From Rhodospirillaceae bacterium SYSU D60007 (GTDB taxonomy: Bacteria; Pseudomonadota; Alphaproteobacteria; Reyranellales; Reyranellaceae), in assembly GCA_003574685.1 (NCBI GenBank), contig QOCQ01000004.1, positions 124,001 to 188,000 of the forward strand: DNA of 64,000 nt. Reading direction: 5' to 3'. The notes under the pieces were generated by a model that saw nothing but the letters and a program-made list of their open reading frames with translations, was not told where the DNA came from and did no database searches. How positions within the stretch are numbered: position 1 is the stretch's first letter; each line of letters opens with the position of its first letter. Both the position numbers and the translations under genes were made by a program. This document shows, one piece after another, positions 6,442 through 36,668 of the stretch.

Positions 6442-7479
6442 ATGAAGCTTGGTCTTGCCATCGGCTATTCCCGGGCCCGGCTCGACGTGCCGGTGAAGCT
6501 GGTCCAGCGGGCCGAGGAGCTGGGGTACGATTCGGTCTGGACAGCCGAGGCCTACGGCTCCGACGCGGTGACGCCGCTGGCCTACCTGGCGGCGCTCACC
6601 AGCCGTATCAAGCTGGGGACGGGCATCATGCAGCTCGCGGCGCGTTCGCCGGCCAATGCGGCGATGTGCGCCGGCACGGTCGATGCGCTGGCCGGCGGCG
6701 GCCGGTTCATCGCCGGGCTGGGCGTTTCCGGGCCGCAAATTGTCGAGGGCTGGTACGGCGAGCCATGGGGCAAGCCTTACTACCGCACGCGCGACTACGT
6801 TGCGATCATGCGCAAGATCTTCCGCCGCGAGGCGCCGGTGACCCATGCCGGCAGGGAGATCAGCCTACCCTACACCGGTGAAGGCGCGCTGGGCGTGGGC
6901 AAGCCGCTGAAATCCATCCTCCACATGAATCCCGATATCCCGATCTATCTGGCGACCGCCACTGAATCGATGGTGAAGCTGACAGCCGAGGTCGCCGATG
7001 GCTGGCTGCCGCTGGGCTTCATTCCCGGTTCGCTGGCGGAGGCGAAGCCGTGGCTGGAGGAGGGCTTCCGGCGCGCCGGTGGCGGCAAGGGCATGAAGGA
7101 CTTTGCCATCCACGCCACCGTTCATGTCGAGGTTGAGGAGGACGTTGCGGCGGCGCTGGCGAGGCTGAAGCCCGAGGTGGCGCTATATGTCGGCGGCATG
7201 GGCCACCGCGACAAGAACTTCCACAAGGACATGATGGTTCGGCGCGGCTTCGGCGAGGCCGCCGCGCGCATCCAGGAGCTGTACCTCGCGGGCCGCAAGG
7301 ACGAGGCCATCGCTGCGGTCCCCGACGAATGGGTTGACATGAAATCGCTGGTCGGGCCACCGGCGCGCATCCGCCAGCGCTACCGTGCGTGGGAGGATAG
7401 CGGCGCCGACAGCCTCTCCGTGCGCTCGCGCCAACCGGCGGCAATCGAAGTGATGGCTGAGGCCGCGCGCCTCAACTGA
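6442..7479 (+). CDS. LLM class oxidoreductase, F420-dependent-type
   Basis: Luciferase-like TIM-barrel oxidoreductase (345 aa). The N-terminus (ELGYDSVWTAEAYGSDAVTP) and the block KLGTGIMQLAARSPA match the large actinobacterial and proteobacterial LLM group usually described as F420-dependent. Cofactor and substrate are unproven; FMN is possible. ATG 6442 is preceded by a strong GGGGGAAG ribosome-binding site. It is divergent from the molybdenum hydroxylase operon and overlaps the 3' end of the convergent nitroreductase by 8 bp. One of seven LLM genes in the first 25 kb. Confidence 0.87.
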   Translation: MKLGLAIGYSRARLDVPVKLVQRAEELGYDSVWTAEAYGSDAVTPLAYLAALTSRIKLGTGIMQLAARSPANAAMCAGTVDALAGGGRFIAGLGVSGPQIVEGWYGEPWGKPYYRTRDYVAIMRKIFRREAPVTHAGREISLPYTGEGALGVGKPLKSILHMNPDIPIYLATATESMVKLTAEVADGWLPLGFIPGSLAEAKPWLEEGFRRAGGGKGMKDFAIHATVHVEVEEDVAAALARLKPEVALYVGGMGHRDKNFHKDMMVRRGFGEAAARIQELYLAGRKDEAIAAVPDEWVDMKSLVGPPARIRQRYRAWEDSGADSLSVRSRQPAAIEVMAEAARLN

Positions 7480-8116
7480 CCGCCTCGCGCCAGGGTTCAC
7501 CCCATCGTTCCGAATAGACGACTTCCGACAGCGGGCCGCGCGACACAGGACCAAAATTCCCCATCGGATAGCCGATGGGGAGAATGGCGTATGAATGGAC
7601 CCCTTCCGGTAGCCCGAGCGCGGCCTCGGCCTCCTTCTCATGGAGCAGGTGGCGCGTGGTGAGGGTCGAGCCGAGGCCGAGCGCGCGGGCTGCCAGCAGC
7701 ATGTTCTGGACCGCGGGGTAGATCGAAGCACCGGCCCATCGATTGGGATTGGGACCGTCCTCCAGGCAGGCGACGATCCAGACCGGCGCTTCGTGGAAAT
7801 GCTCCGTGAGGTATTCCACAGCACGGTGCTGGCGCTGAAAGCGCTCCCGTGTCATGCCCGGCGGCGGCGCGCTGCTGGCATAGCGCGGTCCGACGACTTC
7901 GTCGAAGGCGCGCTTGTAGAAGACCTGCACGGCCTTCTTGACCGCCGGGTCCTTGATCACGAGGAAGCGCCACTTCTGGGCGTTGCCGCCATTGGCGGCC
8001 GCGATGCCAGCCCGCAGAATCTTGCCGATCAGTTCGTCCGGCACCGGATCCGGCCGCAGGCGCCGCATCGCCCGCGTGGTGTGAATGATGTCGAGCGCAT
8101 CAGTTGCTTCGGGCAT
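7472..8116 (-). CDS. Nitroreductase family protein
   Basis: FMN-dependent nitroreductase-fold protein (214 aa), normally a homodimer that reduces nitro groups, quinones, flavins or enones with NAD(P)H. The N-terminal TTRAMRRLRPDPVPDE carries the Arg-rich FMN phosphate site. GGNAQKWRFLVIKD is the second flavin contact, and AVQNMLLAARALGLGSTLTT with LPIGYPMG complete the family pattern. The start is ATG 8116 (MPEATDAL); the frame continues upstream without homology. The 3' end overlaps the convergent LLM gene by 8 bp. Its neighbours (LLM, MFS) suggest xenobiotic metabolism or detoxification, but no substrate can be read. Confidence 0.87.
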   Translation of the reverse strand: MPEATDALDIIHTTRAMRRLRPDPVPDELIGKILRAGIAAANGGNAQKWRFLVIKDPAVKKAVQVFYKRAFDEVVGPRYASSAPPPGMTRERFQRQHRAVEYLTEHFHEAPVWIVACLEDGPNPNRWAGASIYPAVQNMLLAARALGLGSTLTTRHLLHEKEAEAALGLPEGVHSYAILPIGYPMGNFGPVSRGPLSEVVYSERWGEPWREAVS

Positions 8117-29862: not shown

Positions 29863-31212
29863 CTACTCTGCCGGTGTGACGCGCCAGACGATGTTGCCGA
29901 CATCGTCGGCGACCAGCAGGGCGCCGGCCCGGTCGATGACGACGCCGACGGGCCGGCCGAGCGCTTCACCGTCCTCGTTGAGGAAGCCGGTCAGGATGTC
30001 GAGGGGCTGGCCGACGGGGTGACCATCCCGGAAGGGCACGAAGATCACCTTGTAGCCGCTGGGCGGGTTGCGGTTCCACGATCCGTGCAGCCCGACGAAG
30101 GCGCCGCTGCGCAGCGCTTCGGGCAACTGCGTGCCTTCGGCGAAGGCCAGCCCGAGCGGCGCGGTGTGATTGCCAAGCGCGTAATCGGGCACGATGGCCG
30201 TGGCGACGAGCTCGCTCTTCTGCGGCAGGACACGCGTGTCCACATGCTTGCCCCAGTAGCTGTAGGGCCAGCCGTAAAAGCCGCCATCCTTCACCGAGGT
30301 GAGATAGTCGGGCACCAGGTCGCTGCCCAGCTCATCGCGCTCGTTCACCACCGTCCAGAGCGCGCCGGTCTGCGGCTGCCAGGCCATGCCGTTGGGATTG
30401 CGCAAGCCGGTGGCGAACACACGCGTGTTGCCGCTGGCCAGATCGATTTCCAGGATCGCAGCGCGCCGGTCTTCCTTCTCAAGCCCGTTCTCGCCGACAT
30501 TGCTGTTCGAGCCTACGGTGGCGTAGAGACGCGCGCCGTCCGGGCCGGCGATGATGTTCTTCGTCCAGTGGTGATTGAGTGGACCTGCCGGCAGATCGGC
30601 AACCTTCGTCCCTGGGCCGTCGACGTTGGTTTGGCCCGTCTTGTACGGGAAGTGCAGGACGGCGTCGGTGTTGGCTACGTAGAGGCTGTCGCCTATCAGC
30701 GCCATACCGAACGGCGAGTTCAGCCCTTCCAGGAAAGCCGTTTTCAACTCGGCCTTGCCGTCGCCGTCGGCGTCGCGCAGGAGAGTGATGCGGTTGGCAC
30801 TGGGGACACCCGCACCGGCGCGCTTCTGGGCCTGCTTGAAAAACCAGCCGCGAATGCCCTTGCCCTGCTCCGGACGCTCTGGCGCGTTGGTCTCGGCGAC
30901 CAGAACGTCGCCATTCGGCAGCACATAGAGCCAGCGCGGATGGTCGAGGCCCTGGGCGTAGCGCGTCACAGCGAGGCCGTCGGCAGGCTTGGGCGCGGCA
31001 TTGTCGGGCCATCCCTTTGCGGGCGCGATGTTGACGGTCGGGATGAGCGTTTCTGCGGATGGGGGCAGGGTGGGATCCGGCCCGAAACTCGCATGTGGCG
31101 GAAGCCTGGCCTTGTCCTCGGAAATGGCGAAACAGCCGGCCACCACTGCGATAGTTGCGAGGACCGCGACGGCTGCCGCCCCTCCGAGCACGGCCTTCAC
31201 TGCCCGCTTCAT
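29863..31212 (-). CDS. PQQ-dependent sugar dehydrogenase / sorbosone dehydrogenase family lipoprotein
   Basis: Periplasmic beta-propeller dehydrogenase (449 aa). The leader [20 protein letters not shown] ends in VVAGC, a likely lipobox, suggesting an outer- or inner-membrane lipoprotein. Propeller motifs of the GSDH/YliI/L-sorbosone dehydrogenase family follow: [68 protein letters not shown] and [18 protein letters not shown]. The start is ATG 31212 with GAGAGG upstream, not the longer frame. It oxidises an unknown sugar or alcohol and could feed electrons to the cytochrome c and oxidase genes upstream on the same strand. Confidence 0.85.
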
Positions 31213-31275
31213 GAGCGCCTCTCGCGGATGTTGCCGGTCTGGCGTCAACGGCGCCATTCCAGCCCGGTTCCGATG

Positions 31276-31581
31276 TCAGGGTGAGGTGCACACCGGAACG
31301 ATGAGGACCGTGATGCCGAGCCAGGCAACGGCAATGGCGGACAACACCGTCAGCAGGAGGGTGACATCGCGGCGGAACCGTACGGCGGTGCCCGGGGTCA
31401 TCCCGGCGAGCAGCAGGGTCAGCAAGGCGGCGAGGGTTGCTATCCCCACCGCCATGGCCACGGATGCTTCAGCGGTACCGGGCGGTCGAATGGCGCAGAG
31501 CGCTGTGTGTGCGCCGTAGACAACAGCGAAATGCGCGGCCCAGACGATGGGCCCCAGCACCAGTCGGATCAAGAGAGGCAT
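31276..31581 (-). CDS. Small membrane protein in oxidase cluster (hypothetical)
   Basis: Protein of 101 aa with three hydrophobic helices (PIVWAAHFAVVYGAHTAL, AMAVGIATLAALLTLLLAG and LLLTVLSAIAVAWLGITVL). No named family is recognised from sequence alone. Similar small proteins commonly follow alternative heme-copper oxidase genes, where they may act as accessory or assembly subunits. ATG 31581 lies 12 bp after the fused oxidase subunit gene and upstream of the sugar dehydrogenase, so it is very likely in the same transcript. The function is inferred from position only. Confidence 0.7.
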   Translation of the reverse strand: MPLLIRLVLGPIVWAAHFAVVYGAHTALCAIRPPGTAEASVAMAVGIATLAALLTLLLAGMTPGTAVRFRRDVTLLLTVLSAIAVAWLGITVLIVPVCTSP

Positions 31582-31593
31582 TGCGGGCGCCCA

Positions 31594-34128
31594 TCAGAGG
31601 AGGCGAGGGAAGCCATGCACGAGCACGAGCCCAACGAGCCCCTGGCCCGCGCCATACCAGCCGAGCAGGGCTGTATTGTCGAATGCCAGGCGGCGTACGT
31701 TGTCGAGCTTGCCGGCGGCGTAGCGGGCGATGGCGAACAGGCTCATGATCAGCACGGTGATCACGACCTGCCCCGTCAGGGTGGCGCCAAGGTAGACCAT
31801 GGCGGCATAGGCGCTGTCGGCTGGCCGCAAGCCGGCGGTCCAGTGGCCGAAGATCTCAACGATGGTGGCAGCCGTCAGGCAAAGGCTTGCGATGAGCGTC
31901 AGCGCGGGACTGACGTGCCGCAGCGGCCGCGTCCACGCCAGCCCGCGGCCAGCCACGACGAGCAGTCCCGTGCCGGCCAGCAGCAGCGCCCCTGACAGCA
32001 CCGGCCATTCGACGCCGGGCAGCAGCGGCGAGTCGCCGGTAGCCCAGACCTCAGGGGATACGGTCCAGAGGTAGAGGTAGGAGAACATCCAGGCGAGATA
32101 AAGTGAGGCGGCGACCAGCATCAGCACGACCATTGCCCACCACGAATGCGAGGTCGGGCCCGTCCTGTAGGTTGGCAGGCTGATTCCGGCGCCGATCGGG
32201 ACAGGACCCTTGCCGGGACCGAGATCGAGCTGCCAGACCCACACCAGGCACGACAGCACCGCGAGCACGCCGCAGGCGATGGCCGGCACCACCACCTTGA
32301 CCGTCAGCAACAGGAAACAGGCGGCGGTGAAGACGGCGGCGAAGAAATGCGCCCAGCCAGGCCCGGGCATGCGGATGACATACTCCGGGGTCGCGTCAAC
32401 GGGAGAAGTCACGATCGTTTCGCGGCCACCGGTCGGCGCGTTGGGCAGGTAGTACCGGCCCTGCTCGACGTCGCGGGCGAGACCGGGCTGCTCCCATAGC
32501 GGTTCGCGACTGGTGACGTGCGGAATGCTGCGGGTCGAGTAGACGTCGTTGGGCAGCCATTCCAGCGTACCGGCCTGCCAGGGATTGTCGGGGCCCTTGC
32601 CGCGGCGAAATCTCAGGCCAAGGTCAATCACGAACAGCAGAACGCCCGCAGCCAGGATGAAGGCGCCAATGGTTGAAACGAGGTTGGGCAGATCCCAGCC
32701 GATGTCCGCGGGATACGTCCACACGCGCCGTGGCATGCCCATCAGGCCAGCGATGTGCATGGGAAAGAACGTCACGTTGAAGCCGACGAACATCAGCCAG
32801 AACACCCAGCGCCCGAACCGCTCGGATAAGGCGCGCCGGCTGACCATCGGGGCCCAGTAGTAGAACGTCGCGAACAGGGGAAAGACCATGCCGCCGATCA
32901 GCACGTAGTGGAAATGCGCCACCACGAAATAGGTGTCGTGTGCCTGGAAGTCGAACGGCACCACGGCCACCATGACGCCGGTAAGCCCGCCGACCGTGAA
33001 GATGAACAGAAAACCCAGCACAAAAAGCGACGGCGTGGTGATCCGGAATCTTCCGCGGCCCGCGGCCATGGTGGCGATCCACGAGAAGACCTGGATTCCT
33101 GACGGCACCGCGACCGCCATGCTGGCGGCCGAGAAGAAGGCAAGGCTCAGGGCCGGAATGCCCGTCGTGAACATGTGGTGCACCCAGAGCCCGAAGCTGA
33201 AAAAGCCCGTGGCGATGAGTGCCACCACGATGAGCCGGTAACCGACCAGCGGTGTACGCGCCATGGTTGGCACGATCATCGAGACCAGCCCCGCGGCCGG
33301 CAGGAAGATGATGTAGACCTCGGGATGGCCGAAGAACCAGAACAGATGCTGCCACAGAAGGGAGTCTCCTCCCCTGGCGGCCGTGAAGAACGGCCAGCCG
33401 AACGACCGCTCGATCTCCAGCATCATCGTGGCGAGGATGACCGCGGGAAAGGCGAAGACGATCATCGCGGCGAAGATCAGCATCGACCACGCGAAGATCG
33501 GCATCTTGTCGAGCGACATCCCCGGCGGGCGTGTTCGCAGCACACCGACGATGATCTCGACGGCGCCGGCGATGGCCGAGATCTCGATGAAGCCGATGCC
33601 GAGCAGCCAGAAATCGGCGCTGTCGCCGGGAGAAAACTCGGTCAGCGTCAGCGGCGGGTACATGAACCAGCCGCCGCGCGGTGCAAGGTCGTAGAATATC
33701 GTCGAAAAAAACACCAGCCCGCCGATCACATAGGCCCAGATGGCAAAGGCGCTCAGCCGCGGGAAGGGCAGATCGCGCGCCGCCAGCATCTGCGGCAGCA
33801 GCATCACGCCCAGCGCCTCCATCGCCGGCACGGCGAAGAGGAACATCATGGTCGTGCCATGGACCGTGAAGAGCTGATTGTAGAGATCCTGGCTCAGCAG
33901 CGTGCTGTCGCCGGCCGCGAGCTGGGCGCGCATCAGCAGCCCCAGCAAACCGGCAAGAATGAAGAACAGGAACGCCATGCCGATATAGAAGATGCCGATC
34001 ACCGTGTTGTTGACCGCGGTGAGGCGGCGCCAGCCGCGCGGCGTTGCCCAGATGCGCAGCAGCTCCTCGCGCTCGCGCGCAGGACGCGGCAGCGGATTGG
34101 GCAGGTCGGCTGGCGGGCTCTCGTTCAT
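31594..34128 (-). CDS. Cytochrome c oxidase, fused subunit I + III
   Basis: Heme-copper oxidase core (844 aa). Residues 1 to about 545 are subunit I: CuB ligands His268 (GHPEVY, cross-linking Tyr272), His317 and His318 (WVHHMF), and heme ligands in HFHYVLIGG. Residues about 590-844 are subunit III with the typical membrane helices (GATLTGQVVITVLIMS near the end). Two proton-path positions are unusual: the K-channel Lys (Paracoccus Lys354) aligns with Gln346 (SGIQVFSW), and the D-channel Asn aligns with Ser126 after Asp119, while Glu270 of the D-channel is kept. It probably receives electrons from the heme c domain of subunit II. It resembles alternative rhizobial oxidases (CoxMNOP type). Confidence 0.92.
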   Translation of the reverse strand: MNESPPADLPNPLPRPAREREELLRIWATPRGWRRLTAVNNTVIGIFYIGMAFLFFILAGLLGLLMRAQLAAGDSTLLSQDLYNQLFTVHGTTMMFLFAVPAMEALGVMLLPQMLAARDLPFPRLSAFAIWAYVIGGLVFFSTIFYDLAPRGGWFMYPPLTLTEFSPGDSADFWLLGIGFIEISAIAGAVEIIVGVLRTRPPGMSLDKMPIFAWSMLIFAAMIVFAFPAVILATMMLEIERSFGWPFFTAARGGDSLLWQHLFWFFGHPEVYIIFLPAAGLVSMIVPTMARTPLVGYRLIVVALIATGFFSFGLWVHHMFTTGIPALSLAFFSAASMAVAVPSGIQVFSWIATMAAGRGRFRITTPSLFVLGFLFIFTVGGLTGVMVAVVPFDFQAHDTYFVVAHFHYVLIGGMVFPLFATFYYWAPMVSRRALSERFGRWVFWLMFVGFNVTFFPMHIAGLMGMPRRVWTYPADIGWDLPNLVSTIGAFILAAGVLLFVIDLGLRFRRGKGPDNPWQAGTLEWLPNDVYSTRSIPHVTSREPLWEQPGLARDVEQGRYYLPNAPTGGRETIVTSPVDATPEYVIRMPGPGWAHFFAAVFTAACFLLLTVKVVVPAIACGVLAVLSCLVWVWQLDLGPGKGPVPIGAGISLPTYRTGPTSHSWWAMVVLMLVAASLYLAWMFSYLYLWTVSPEVWATGDSPLLPGVEWPVLSGALLLAGTGLLVVAGRGLAWTRPLRHVSPALTLIASLCLTAATIVEIFGHWTAGLRPADSAYAAMVYLGATLTGQVVITVLIMSLFAIARYAAGKLDNVRRLAFDNTALLGWYGAGQGLVGLVLVHGFPRLL

Positions 34129-34135
34129 TGTTCGG

Positions 34136-35068
34136 CTATTTCAGGCCGGCGAGATAACGGGAAAGCGCGGCAAGCTGACGATCGTCGAAGATGGCGAACG
34201 GCGGCATGCGATTTTGCGGCTTGATGTGCTGGTTGTCGCGAATCCAGCGACCGATCGCGGCTGCATCGTTGCTCATGGTTGCGGCCGCCAGCGACAGGCG
34301 GCCGCCGACATGGGTGAGGTCCGGCCCGATGCGCCCGGCAGCGTCGGTGCCGCGAATCGTGTGGCAGGCGCCGCAACCGCTGGTGATGAACAGCGTCTGG
34401 CCCAGCCGGGTCTCGGCATCCGCAGGCGGGATTGCCGGCCCGGATTCGTGCGCAAGCCAGGATTCGAACTCGGTCGCGTTCAATGCGACAACGTGGAAAG
34501 ACATCAGGGCGTGGGCACCACCGCAGTATTCGGCGCATTGCCCGCGGCTGACTCCGGTCGCATTCGCAACCAGGCTCATCACGTTTGTACGGCCAGGTAT
34601 CATGTCGACCTTGCCGGCAAGGCTGGGGACCCAGAATGAATGGATCACGTCGGCCGTGCGCAGTTCGACGTTGACGGTGCGACCGACGGGGATGCGCAAT
34701 TCGTTGGCGCTCTCGAAACTGCGGCCGCCGGCTCCAGGGTAGATGACGCGCCACCACCAGCGTTCACCTACAACGGCAACGCGCAGGGCGTCTGGATCGC
34801 TGTGCACAGCGCCGGCGCGCAGCGCGAACAGTCCCCAGGCCAGCAAGGCAGTCAGCAGACAAACCGGCAGAACGATGCCGACCCAGACCACCAGCCGTTC
34901 CGATCTGAGCCAGCCTCGACCGGGCGAGTCTCCCTTCAGTGCCAAAGCCGTCAGCACGGCGACGGCAAGCATGATCAGCGTGCCCCCGCCCAGCATCGTC
35001 CAGAACAGTGTCGCGATGCGCTCGGCATCCTGCCCCCGCGGCGCCAGCACCGACTGCACGCCGTTCAT
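34136..35068 (-). CDS. Cytochrome c oxidase subunit II with fused heme c domain (caa3 type)
   Basis: Electron-entry subunit (310 aa). Two N-terminal membrane helices are followed by the cupredoxin domain with CuA ligands: His in VIHSFWVP near residue 143, then Cys178, Glu180, Cys182, His186 and Met189 (CAEYCGGAHALM). A C-terminal cytochrome c domain carries one heme site, Cys232-Cys235-His236 (CGACH), with a Met in NRMPPF as probable axial ligand. It is periplasmic, anchored in the inner membrane. It overlaps the tri-heme cytochrome by 4 bp and precedes subunit I+III by 7 bp. ATG 35068. Confidence 0.92.
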   Translation of the reverse strand: MNGVQSVLAPRGQDAERIATLFWTMLGGGTLIMLAVAVLTALALKGDSPGRGWLRSERLVVWVGIVLPVCLLTALLAWGLFALRAGAVHSDPDALRVAVVGERWWWRVIYPGAGGRSFESANELRIPVGRTVNVELRTADVIHSFWVPSLAGKVDMIPGRTNVMSLVANATGVSRGQCAEYCGGAHALMSFHVVALNATEFESWLAHESGPAIPPADAETRLGQTLFITSGCGACHTIRGTDAAGRIGPDLTHVGGRLSLAAATMSNDAAAIGRWIRDNQHIKPQNRMPPFAIFDDRQLAALSRYLAGLK

Positions 35069-36132
35069 GGCTCGACACTCGCGAACCAGGCGGCAACGTC
35101 TTCGATCTGCCGATCGGACAGGAGCCGCGCAATCGGCGTCATGATCGCGCCTTGCGGTGTGTCCGCGCGTATCCCTTTCTGCAATAGATGAAGCTGGCCG
35201 GCGATATAGGCTTCCGACTGCCCGGCAAGCTTCGGATACGTGGCAAGGGCGTGACCGCCATGGCAGGTCAGGCAGGGGGGAATGCCCCGCTCTTCGAATC
35301 CGCCGGTGGCGATGCCGCGCCCGCGCTCGATCTGACCGGCTTCGGCATCCGCGGGCGGAACGGATGCGGGTTTCAGCCCGGCGTAGTAACGGGCGACAAG
35401 CTCGATCGTACGGGAGTTCAGACGCGCGGCCTGCGGCTGCATGATGCCACTGGGCCGCTGGCCGTGGGCGTAATTGCGCAGCGCCAGCTCGAGATAGCGT
35501 TGCGACTGGCCATTGAGTCGGGGTACCAGGCGGCTGACCGGCGGCGAGGAACTATCGCCATGGCAGGCCACGCATGCGGCCACGGCGGGCGTATCAGCGG
35601 GCGGCAGACGTGTCAGCTCGCGATAGCGCGCGGCATCCATTTCCGGCAGTTGCAACAGGAAGGCGACCACCGCCCAGACCTCATCGCCGCGCCGTGGCGC
35701 GGGCCAGGCCGGCATGCCGGTGTATTTGAGCCCGTTGCGCACGATCCAGAAGAGTTCCTCGGCAGTCCAGGTCGGCGCGCGCACGGAAAGCGGCGGCGGC
35801 GCAGGCTGCATCGCCCTCACGATCGGGTTGGCCTGCTCCCCAGGTGCGCCGTGGCAGGAAGCGCAGCCGTCGCGGAAATGTCCGGCCCCGAGGCGCACCA
35901 GGTTGCGATCGTCCAGCGACGGCGGCGCCTGCACCGGCAGGCTGTAGGTGGCCACCGCGCGCCGCTTGCCGAACTCCAGGAACCACCGCGTGATCTCGAG
36001 ATGGCTGCGGCTGGCAGCGATGTCGTAGACGCCGGACAGCGCCACGAGAAAGCCCGCGACAGCCAGGCCGCAAAGCGTGAGCGCGGCAATGACGGCGTCG
36101 CGCCGCGTCGGCTGCCACCAGCGCCGGGCCAC
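35065..36132 (-). CDS. Membrane-anchored tri-heme cytochrome c
   Basis: Electron carrier of 355 aa with one N-terminal membrane helix (AALTLCGLAVAGFLVALSG) and three CxxCH heme sites: Cys90-Cys93-His94 (CASCH), Cys187-Cys190-His191 (CVACH) and Cys287-Cys290-His291 (CLTCH). The arrangement (a single cytochrome c domain, then a cytochrome c4-like pair) resembles the cytochrome subunits of membrane alcohol, aldehyde or gluconate dehydrogenases. It could therefore carry electrons from a periplasmic dehydrogenase to the caa3-type oxidase encoded next. It lies 2 bp after the CtaG-like gene and its stop overlaps subunit II. Confidence 0.88.
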   Translation of the reverse strand: MARRWWQPTRRDAVIAALTLCGLAVAGFLVALSGVYDIAASRSHLEITRWFLEFGKRRAVATYSLPVQAPPSLDDRNLVRLGAGHFRDGCASCHGAPGEQANPIVRAMQPAPPPLSVRAPTWTAEELFWIVRNGLKYTGMPAWPAPRRGDEVWAVVAFLLQLPEMDAARYRELTRLPPADTPAVAACVACHGDSSSPPVSRLVPRLNGQSQRYLELALRNYAHGQRPSGIMQPQAARLNSRTIELVARYYAGLKPASVPPADAEAGQIERGRGIATGGFEERGIPPCLTCHGGHALATYPKLAGQSEAYIAGQLHLLQKGIRADTPQGAIMTPIARLLSDRQIEDVAAWFASVEP

Positions 36133-36134
36133 TT

Positions 36135-36668
36135 CTAGACTGCCCGGATCCAGCGCGCCGCGATCACCACACCGGCCAGCACGTAGGTCAGCGGGCAGGC
36201 GACGATCATCATCAGTCCGGCGAGCTGCTGGTCCGCCAGCGCCGCCTCAGCGGCGAGGCCATGGCCGTGCGCTTCGCCGGCGAGCGGGTAGATCGCGCGC
36301 GGGGCCAGCGCGAGGAGGATGCCCAGCAGGCAGAAGAGCTTGCCCGTCACCAGCAGGGCGGCCATGGCGCGCCAGCCGCTGCGCCCGGCCTGGGCGAAGA
36401 CCGCGATCCAGAACCACAACGCCACGGCAAAGAGAACAACTTGCATCGCCAGATGAAGGGCTGGCGTCCGCAGCGCGGCCGTCACGACGCCGGGCGCATG
36501 CATCGCCCAAAGCACGATCGCCTGCGTGACGGTAGCGGCCAGCAGCGCCTTCGCCCGGCACGGCAGCAACGCGCGGCTGCCCGCAAACAGCGCCAGCAGC
36601 GGCGCACAGCCGTTCATGAGGAGAATATGCAGGCCCATGTGACTGGAGAGCGGCCCCATGCGGACCAT
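36135..36668 (-). CDS. CtaG-like cytochrome c oxidase assembly protein (caa3_CtaG family)
   Basis: Membrane protein of 177 aa with about five helices. The opening MGLHILLMNGCAPLLALFAG and the internal helix-histidine pattern (VLWAMHAPGV, LHLAMQVVLFAVALWFW, DQQLAGLMMIVACPLTYVLA) match the caa3_CtaG family, which differs from the copper chaperone CtaG/Cox11. It is probably needed for assembly of the caa3-type oxidase encoded immediately downstream. It is shorter than typical family members. Start options are ATG 36668 or the nearby in-frame MGPL; the choice does not affect the assignment. Confidence 0.8.
   Translation of the reverse strand: MVRMGPLSSHMGLHILLMNGCAPLLALFAGSRALLPCRAKALLAATVTQAIVLWAMHAPGVVTAALRTPALHLAMQVVLFAVALWFWIAVFAQAGRSGWRAMAALLVTGKLFCLLGILLALAPRAIYPLAGEAHGHGLAAEAALADQQLAGLMMIVACPLTYVLAGVVIAARWIRAV

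Follow-up and report, generated by a model that had tools for sequence, protein, structure and literature searches.

A caa3-type A-family oxidase without the K-channel lysine and with altered D-channel residues in Rhodospirillaceae bacterium SYSU D60007

The window analyzed here, a stretch of 64,000 nucleotides from Rhodospirillaceae bacterium SYSU D60007 (GenBank assembly GCA_003574685.1, contig QOCQ01000004.1, positions 124,001 to 188,000), encodes on its reverse strand an A-family oxidase in which subunits I and III are fused into one polypeptide. A-type enzymes use the D path for the pumped protons and a share of the chemical ones and leave the remainder to the K path (PMC6934443, PMC8079940; papers are cited by PubMed Central identifier and for the excerpts available). 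An original prediction, made from the sequence of the fusion gene, held that the residues governing proton uptake are altered in this enzyme. We examined those residues, their conservation in relatives, and the partner subunit, and consider what they suggest about proton entry. The two core genes, in coordinates of the window, are as follows.

31594..34128, reverse strand: oxidase subunit I+III fusion, 844 amino acids, A1-type, K-channel without Lys (open reading frame, NCBIfam, alignment, model)
34136..35068, reverse strand: subunit II, with a CuA site and a cytochrome c fused at its C-terminus, lacking the K-channel entry Glu (PF00116 and PF00034, alignment)

The fusion scores 688.7 bits against NCBIfam TIGR02891 (CtaD_CoxA; cut-off, 670.75). 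The CuA ligands of subunit II, read from the translation, are complete, and together with the fused cytochrome c they give the combination that marks a caa3-type enzyme. An AlphaFold model of the fusion has a mean predicted local distance difference test score (pLDDT) of 87.5 and a predicted template modelling score (pTM) of 0.90. Foldseek ranked the Thermus caa3 structure 2yev first, with Z of 41.6 over 760 residues; the best Z, 44.1, belongs to the mycobacterial aa3 chain 6adq_F, with R. sphaeroides chains close behind among the matches listed. Among the matches listed, none is named as a K-less bacterial member.

Channel residues of the fused subunit

Where the window is named, residues carry the numbering of its own proteins; elsewhere the ruler is the Rhodobacter sphaeroides structure 1m56, whose stretch starts at 91. 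The codons of interest, all within the fusion gene, are listed here.

33091..33093, reverse strand: Gln346 (K-channel Lys362 in R. sphaeroides, Lys354 in Paracoccus; alignments)
33100..33102, reverse strand: Ser343 (K-channel Thr359; alignment)
33751..33753, reverse strand: Ser126 (D-channel Asn139; alignment)
33772..33774, reverse strand: Asp119 (D-channel entrance Asp132), retained (alignment)
33805..33807, reverse strand: Val108 (D-channel Asn121; alignment)
33817..33819, reverse strand: Glu104, new, on the same helix and four residues ahead of the Asn121 position
33583..33585, reverse strand: Glu182, new (Gly198 in R. sphaeroides; alignment)
33556..33558, reverse strand: Glu191 (D-channel Asn207; alignment)
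33319..33321, reverse strand: Glu270 (Glu286, inner end of the D-channel), retained (alignment)

Alignments with solved oxidases and with R. sphaeroides agree in pairing Gln346 with the K-channel Lys (PSGIQVFSW against PTGVKIFNW of 6koc), as the prediction had read from the motif SGIQVFSW, and T359 is replaced by S343. The D-channel is bounded by residues including N121, N139, S142, S197, S200, S201, and N207 (PMC10341450). Along it, D132 and E286 correspond to D119 and E270, and N139, N121, N207, S142, and S201 have become S126, V108, E191, A129, and A185; the calls of a retained entrance Asp and of Ser126 in place of the D-channel Asn were thus correct. At the active site, Y288 pairs with Y272, and the haem and CuB ligands H90, H268, H317, H318, H405, and H407 are all present. 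The constant offset of 8 from Paracoccus numbering, on which the prediction relied, holds for the CuB and K-channel residues but breaks down at Asp119, where it is 5.

Misalignment was considered as a cause and set aside, since both the K stretch and the helix IV stretch are free of gaps. The sole gap near these sites is a single residue ahead of the Asn121 position, and two MAFFT alignments set it differently; the pairing of E104 with Gly117 hinges on it, and the four-residue spacing to the Asn121 position is unaffected. In the model, the helix spanning 80-114 holds E104 and V108, and that spanning 169-198 holds E182 and E191.

The same pattern emerges from the A1 fingerprint in Table 2 of PMC3084760. 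The haem and CuB ligands are found, as are Tyr280, Glu278 (GHPEV; Glu270 here), the D-channel Asp124 (Asp119), and the K-channel Ser291 (Ser283). Missing are Asn113, Asn131, and Asn199 (Val108, Ser126, and Glu191), Ser134 and Ser193 (Ala129 and Ala185, assuming a numbering shift of 8), and the K-channel Lys354 and Thr351 (Gln346 and Ser343). The window enzyme is therefore of the A family by descent, fold, and active site, and departs from the fingerprint of that source at the K-channel and at some of the D-channel residues. Other classes fit less well. An A2-type enzyme would be expected to have Tyr replacing Glu278, but the window reads WFFGHPEV; a B-type enzyme, with no D-channel residues and an alternative K-channel of Thr, Ser, and Tyr, is at odds with the presence of Asp119 and Glu270 and with K positions occupied by Gln346 and Ser283.

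The K-channel begins at a Glu of subunit II (E78 in Paracoccus, E101 in R. sphaeroides). In the subunit II of the window, the alignment pairs this entry position with Leu59.

Conservation and descent of the K-less clade

Loci were gathered from the order, class, and phylum of the window genome and from named genomes, the named loci being the best 80 of 588 candidates that matched two of the clade's peptide patterns, and 169 rows were aligned. The rows are enriched for relatives and are not independent; L048 and L145, for example, are an identical stretch. Five rows were omitted before counting: L002, L005, and L144 because they are the copy in the window itself, and L003 and L004 because they gave no match. 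Clade counts use groups from trees built without the columns being counted: a main tree of 431 columns and 169 rows with 19 trait columns excluded, and a second tree, under a site-mixture model, of 33 thinned rows.

In the 97-row core clade of the query, Gln occupies position 346 in every row (97/97, query included), which excludes sequencing error or chance. The new carboxylates are as constant among the rows that cover them (E182, 96/96; E191, 96/96; E104, 94/94). Asn is found in 0/95 rows at the Asn121 site, where Ile, Val, Met, or Leu stands in 95/95, and in 0/95 at the Asn139 site, which holds Ser in 62, Thr in 18, Gly in 14, and Ala in 1. The two ends of the D-channel have been kept, as Asp in 89 and Glu in 6 of 95 rows at position 132 and as Glu in 93 and Asp in 4 of 97 at position 286. 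So has the active site: His 284, 333, 334, 411, 419, and 421 and the equivalents of Tyr288 and Arg481/482 are present in 97/97 rows and H102 in 94/94. The K-channel ladder, by comparison, is loose, with S299 changed to Ala in 23/97 rows and S365 kept in 11/97 and lost in 86/97. Nor has another lysine come to fill the K-channel position, since none is shifted into the K region in any core row (positions 286-299, 345-366, and 388-403). This is the pattern expected if the K path carries protons no longer while the D path still does. Judged by these alignments, three gate Asn residues have been replaced (by Val, Ser, and Glu), and three Glu residues are fixed on the pair of helices that carry D-channel residues.

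The partner subunit follows the same division. Of 163 matching loci, 154 passed a CuA-motif filter (9 were dropped), and 3 own copies were then removed. The entry Glu of subunit II is present in 27/27 loci with the subunit I Lys and in 0/120 loci without it, a further 1 and 4, respectively, being gapped there. The K-channel therefore reads as absent in both subunits, through loss of the subunit I Lys and of the subunit II entry Glu. As a separate observation, the CuA Met ligand is replaced by His in 4 and by Asn in 1 of 124 Lys-less subunit II rows.

In the main tree, all 135 rows without the Lys fall under a single branch that is free of Lys-bearing rows (Shimodaira-Hasegawa-like approximate likelihood ratio test [SH-aLRT] support, 100), and in the site-mixture tree the Lys state changes once (100/100). 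The latter tree has one change each for E198, for Glu or Gln at 117, for loss of N121, and for loss of Asp/Glu132, and three for E207. Given where both trees place these changes, the Lys would have been lost first, with the new Glu residues arising later on one branch. Seven Lys-less rows (L106, L111, L118, L124, L129, L137, and L142), whose named records are actinobacterial, still have Asp132 and an unaltered Asn gate; for this reason, K-channel loss seems to have preceded the change in the D-channel.

Other Lys-less rows depart from the core pattern. Glu286 is Trp (GHPWV) in 11 of them (L016, L055, L056, L057, L109, L115, L116, L117, L119, L120, and L125), where the Lys site is Ala, Ser, Gly, or Gln and Asp132 is kept; L116 has genes for COX3 and for a multi-haem cytochrome c next to its oxidase gene. 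A 20-row sister subclade (L054, L102, L105, L108, L112, L114, and L130, for example) lacks the K-channel Lys in 20/20 rows and has Glu198 and Glu286 in 20/20 each.

Relatives of the window oxidase are not rare. In a survey of the phylum, 41/398 sampled genomes, that of the window included, had a profile match at E <= 1e-170, and of the further loci read from this survey, 28/28 have Gln and E182. Many Sinorhizobium copies, about 75% identical, lie in plasmid records, and the pSYMB copy of Sinorhizobium meliloti Rm41 (L173, 75% identical) has the same residues as the window oxidase, namely Q362, E198, E207, V121, and S139 in R. sphaeroides numbering. A Lys-bearing canonical aa3 is also present in 24/24 genomes examined, chosen among those that bear a member, and in the window genome (C3), so the Lys-less enzyme is an additional oxidase.

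Proton entry and pumping

We propose that the window encodes a working caa3-type oxidase of the A family, found beside a normal aa3, that takes in protons by the D path alone and probably pumps less than 1 H+/e-; taken as a whole, this reading seems to us to have about an even chance of being right. Electrons would pass from the c-type haems to CuA, then to haem a, and on to the site formed by haem a3, CuB, and Tyr272. With the K path missing and the enzyme nevertheless conserved, another proton route must serve, and the conserved D entrance, the conserved D end, and the new Glu residues point to a remodelled D path. All cytoplasmic protons would enter there, making this a single-input oxidase. 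Pumping would be reduced or absent, a step of which we are less certain than of D-only entry. Charge would still be separated, the chemical protons being drawn from inside, and one can picture the enzyme as a fast, low-yield electron outlet.

The expectation about pumping comes from laboratory enzymes. All pumped protons use the D-channel (PMC8079940), and at the Ser126 site the substitutions N98S and N98T (bovine numbering) still permit O2 reduction but no longer pumping, according to a 2026 review (PMC12901375). Because Ser or Thr at this site uncouples those enzymes, we think pumping below 1 H+/e- likelier here than full pumping. The same review reports that loss of the K-channel Lys essentially blocks reduction of haem a3 and that N98D or N98T, added to the Lys mutant, restores the blocked step. 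Going by its sequences, the clade naturally pairs loss of the K-channel Lys with Ser or Thr at the Asn139 site. The suggestion that stoichiometry or mechanism may differ is thus well founded, in that the residue changes are right and fixed in a large clade. Its scope was too narrow, since both subunits and the D-channel are remodelled and not just two points changed. A more explicit history, which we offer only tentatively and would not be surprised to see fail, is that the K-channel was lost first and that a carboxylate path (E104, E182, and E191, on helices II and IV) then took over, leaving the query clade as a natural D-only and possibly uncoupled group of oxidases. With such a path in place, the sister subclade could have dropped the entrance Asp132.

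A number of points weigh against D-only entry with lowered pumping. Asp132 is in fact replaced in 16/20 rows of that sister subclade (Asn in 13, Ser in 2, Ile in 1), so relatives can do without the classical D entrance. A third way of proton entry is possible there, and either the new Glu residues provide a separate entrance or D-only entry is not the whole story. The GHPWV group, with neither the K-channel Lys nor the D-end Glu, fits no simple picture. Support for the branch that joins the Glu-bearing rows (117 rows in the main tree) is moderate, at an SH-aLRT of 96, and 85/76 in the site-mixture tree. By helical-wheel reasoning, position 182 seems to face away from the channel side. Since haem a3 reduction is essentially blocked in laboratory enzymes without the K-channel Lys, entry by the D path alone would require a proton to cross the active site to reach Tyr272. 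The enzymes in which Ser or Thr was seen to uncouple have none of the extra Glu residues, which may here restore the gate. Subunit II of the window has Glu57 two residues ahead of Leu59 (Paracoccus position 76), and several close relatives also have an acid at that place; a displaced K-like entry is therefore conceivable in the query's own subclade. Finally, our literature search found no activity or pumping measurement for any member of the clade.

Some of these points lead to other explanations. If the new Glu residues rebuild the gate formerly given by Asn, a D-only oxidase could still pump about 1 H+/e-. This is the strongest of the alternatives, although we judge it unlikely. One change apiece in the 33-row tree accounts for E182, for E104 (as Glu or Gln), and for the loss of N121, all of them nearly invariant thereafter, and E191 lies directly at the N207 site. 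E191, however, changes three times in that tree and is hence not irreplaceable in relatives, and the uncoupling by Ser or Thr at the Asn139 site of laboratory enzymes (PMC12901375) also tells against full pumping. Less probable still, and in our view a poor bet, is a K path that persists without its Lys, with Gln346, Ser343, Ser336, Ser311, and waters conducting as in the B family. Consistent with it, when rows are grouped by signature residues, Ser311 is found in 75/79 and Ser336 in 78/79 Glu-bearing rows, against 3/33 and 4/33 Lys-bearing rows; the B-type enzyme of Thermus thermophilus has Thr at the Lys site (Table 2 of PMC12901375), and Glu57 lies near the old entry. Such a path would have to do without the entry Glu, kept in none of the 120 Lys-less loci, and with the eroded S299 and S365 of the core clade, and Gln is not part of the B-type fingerprint in PMC3084760.

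It is very unlikely that protons arrive by some other route, whether from the outside, as in cNOR, or by a haem a side path, with turnover weakly or not electrogenic. The loss of Asp132 in the Lys-less sister subclade and the Trp at 286 in the GHPWV rows would suit such a route; within the core clade, an acid at 132 and at 286 is never lost where these sites are covered. That the protein is decayed, or is not an oxidase, we regard as hardly credible: residues held essential in A-type enzymes are indeed lost, but the metal-ligand His, Tyr288, and Arg481/482 equivalents are intact throughout the core clade, the CuA ligands of the window's subunit II are complete, and a subunit II gene adjoins the fusion in 33/38 named core loci (L064-L101), some of which are cut contigs.

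Known oxidases and the gene neighbourhood

Two elements of this system are already in print: the class of A1 subtype a operons with COX1-3 (Degli Esposti and colleagues) and K-channel loss of family A oxidases in archaea. The fused COX1-3 is common to the former and to the window (PMC4013037), and Caa3_CtaG often adjoins in Alphaproteobacteria, as it does here (PMC6431628), though neither excerpt names channel residues; our assignment of the window operon to subtype a is by gene content only. The archaeal K-less enzymes share the K-channel loss but belong to other lineages, with seven independent losses in one scenario discussed in PMC8239418. The aa3 oxidases of R. sphaeroides and Paracoccus denitrificans are alike in fold (Z of 40.3 to 44.1 in the matches listed), active site, D entrance, and terminal Glu; their K362, subunit II E101, N121, N139, and N207 are replaced in the window, whose Glu104 and Glu182 are new. 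The Thermus thermophilus caa3 structure 2yev aligns with nearly the whole fusion and likewise has a cytochrome c fused to subunit II, although that subunit, unlike the window's, retains the entry Glu (RLEVVW); we take 2yev to be an A2-type enzyme with its K-channel intact. In Shewanella, the aa3 enzyme keeps the D and K residues (PMC3899249). Work on Pseudomonas caa3/ccaa3 oxidases under cyanide and starvation (PMC5492768) names no channel residues. The B and C families also have one proton input path, but it is K-like only, where the window enzyme would be D only in the reading we propose (PMC6934443, PMC8079940). Parts of the bacterial K-less combination may already be known; a literature search that left supplements and a 2020 review outside its scope turned up no description of a bacterial clade with loss in both subunits, fixed Glu residues, and a natural Ser/Thr gate, and no oxidase with the same residues known to pump normally.

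Most of the argument over the purpose of K input and the need for the D-channel Asn gate has so far turned on point mutants of a handful of enzymes. Having lost the K path and carrying at a key D site a Ser or Thr of the kind that uncouples laboratory enzymes, this clade looks like the natural opposite of the K-only B and C families; if D-only, its members would be their mirror image and may reduce O2 while pumping fewer protons than usual. It has been argued that the A family owes its full pumping to having a D-channel in addition to the K-channel and that a barrier is needed between the D end and the tyrosine (PMC8079940), and a D-only enzyme would be a direct test of that argument. If the carboxylate-path history is true, the clade represents a third answer to how oxygen reductases are supplied with protons and a possible natural uncoupling in a family taken to pump 1 H+/e-. 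There is also a consequence for annotation, since K-less genes are labelled as ordinary cytochrome c oxidase subunit I, and growth-yield models would assume full pumping.

The remaining genes of the cluster are as follows.

36135..36668, reverse strand: Caa3_CtaG assembly factor (PF09678, 58.6 bits; cut-off, 27.7)
35065..36132, reverse strand: multi-haem cytochrome c with three CxxCH motifs in its translation; the gene overlaps that of subunit II at the latter's start
31276..31581, reverse strand: small hydrophobic protein of 101 amino acids, directly downstream of the fusion gene
29863..31257, reverse strand: glucose/sorbosone dehydrogenase-like gene, 18 bases past the gene for the 101-amino-acid protein

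Together with the two core genes, these form a compact reverse-strand cluster in the order Caa3_CtaG, multi-haem cytochrome c, subunit II, I+III fusion, 101-amino-acid protein, and dehydrogenase-like gene. The 101-amino-acid protein has no match in Pfam or NCBIfam; weak homologues adjoin the oxidase in 12/80 named loci, and it is possibly an extra, unnamed small subunit. The dehydrogenase-like gene, possibly part of an electron donor system, has homologues in three related oxidase loci (L070, L097, and L117). In Rhizobium sp. Q54 (L174), the genes run from that of the assembly protein through those of cytochrome c and subunit II to a sodium/calcium exchanger-like gene, followed by those of subunit I and the small protein, with the exchanger-like gene at 6874-7944 of that locus, between the genes for subunits II and I.

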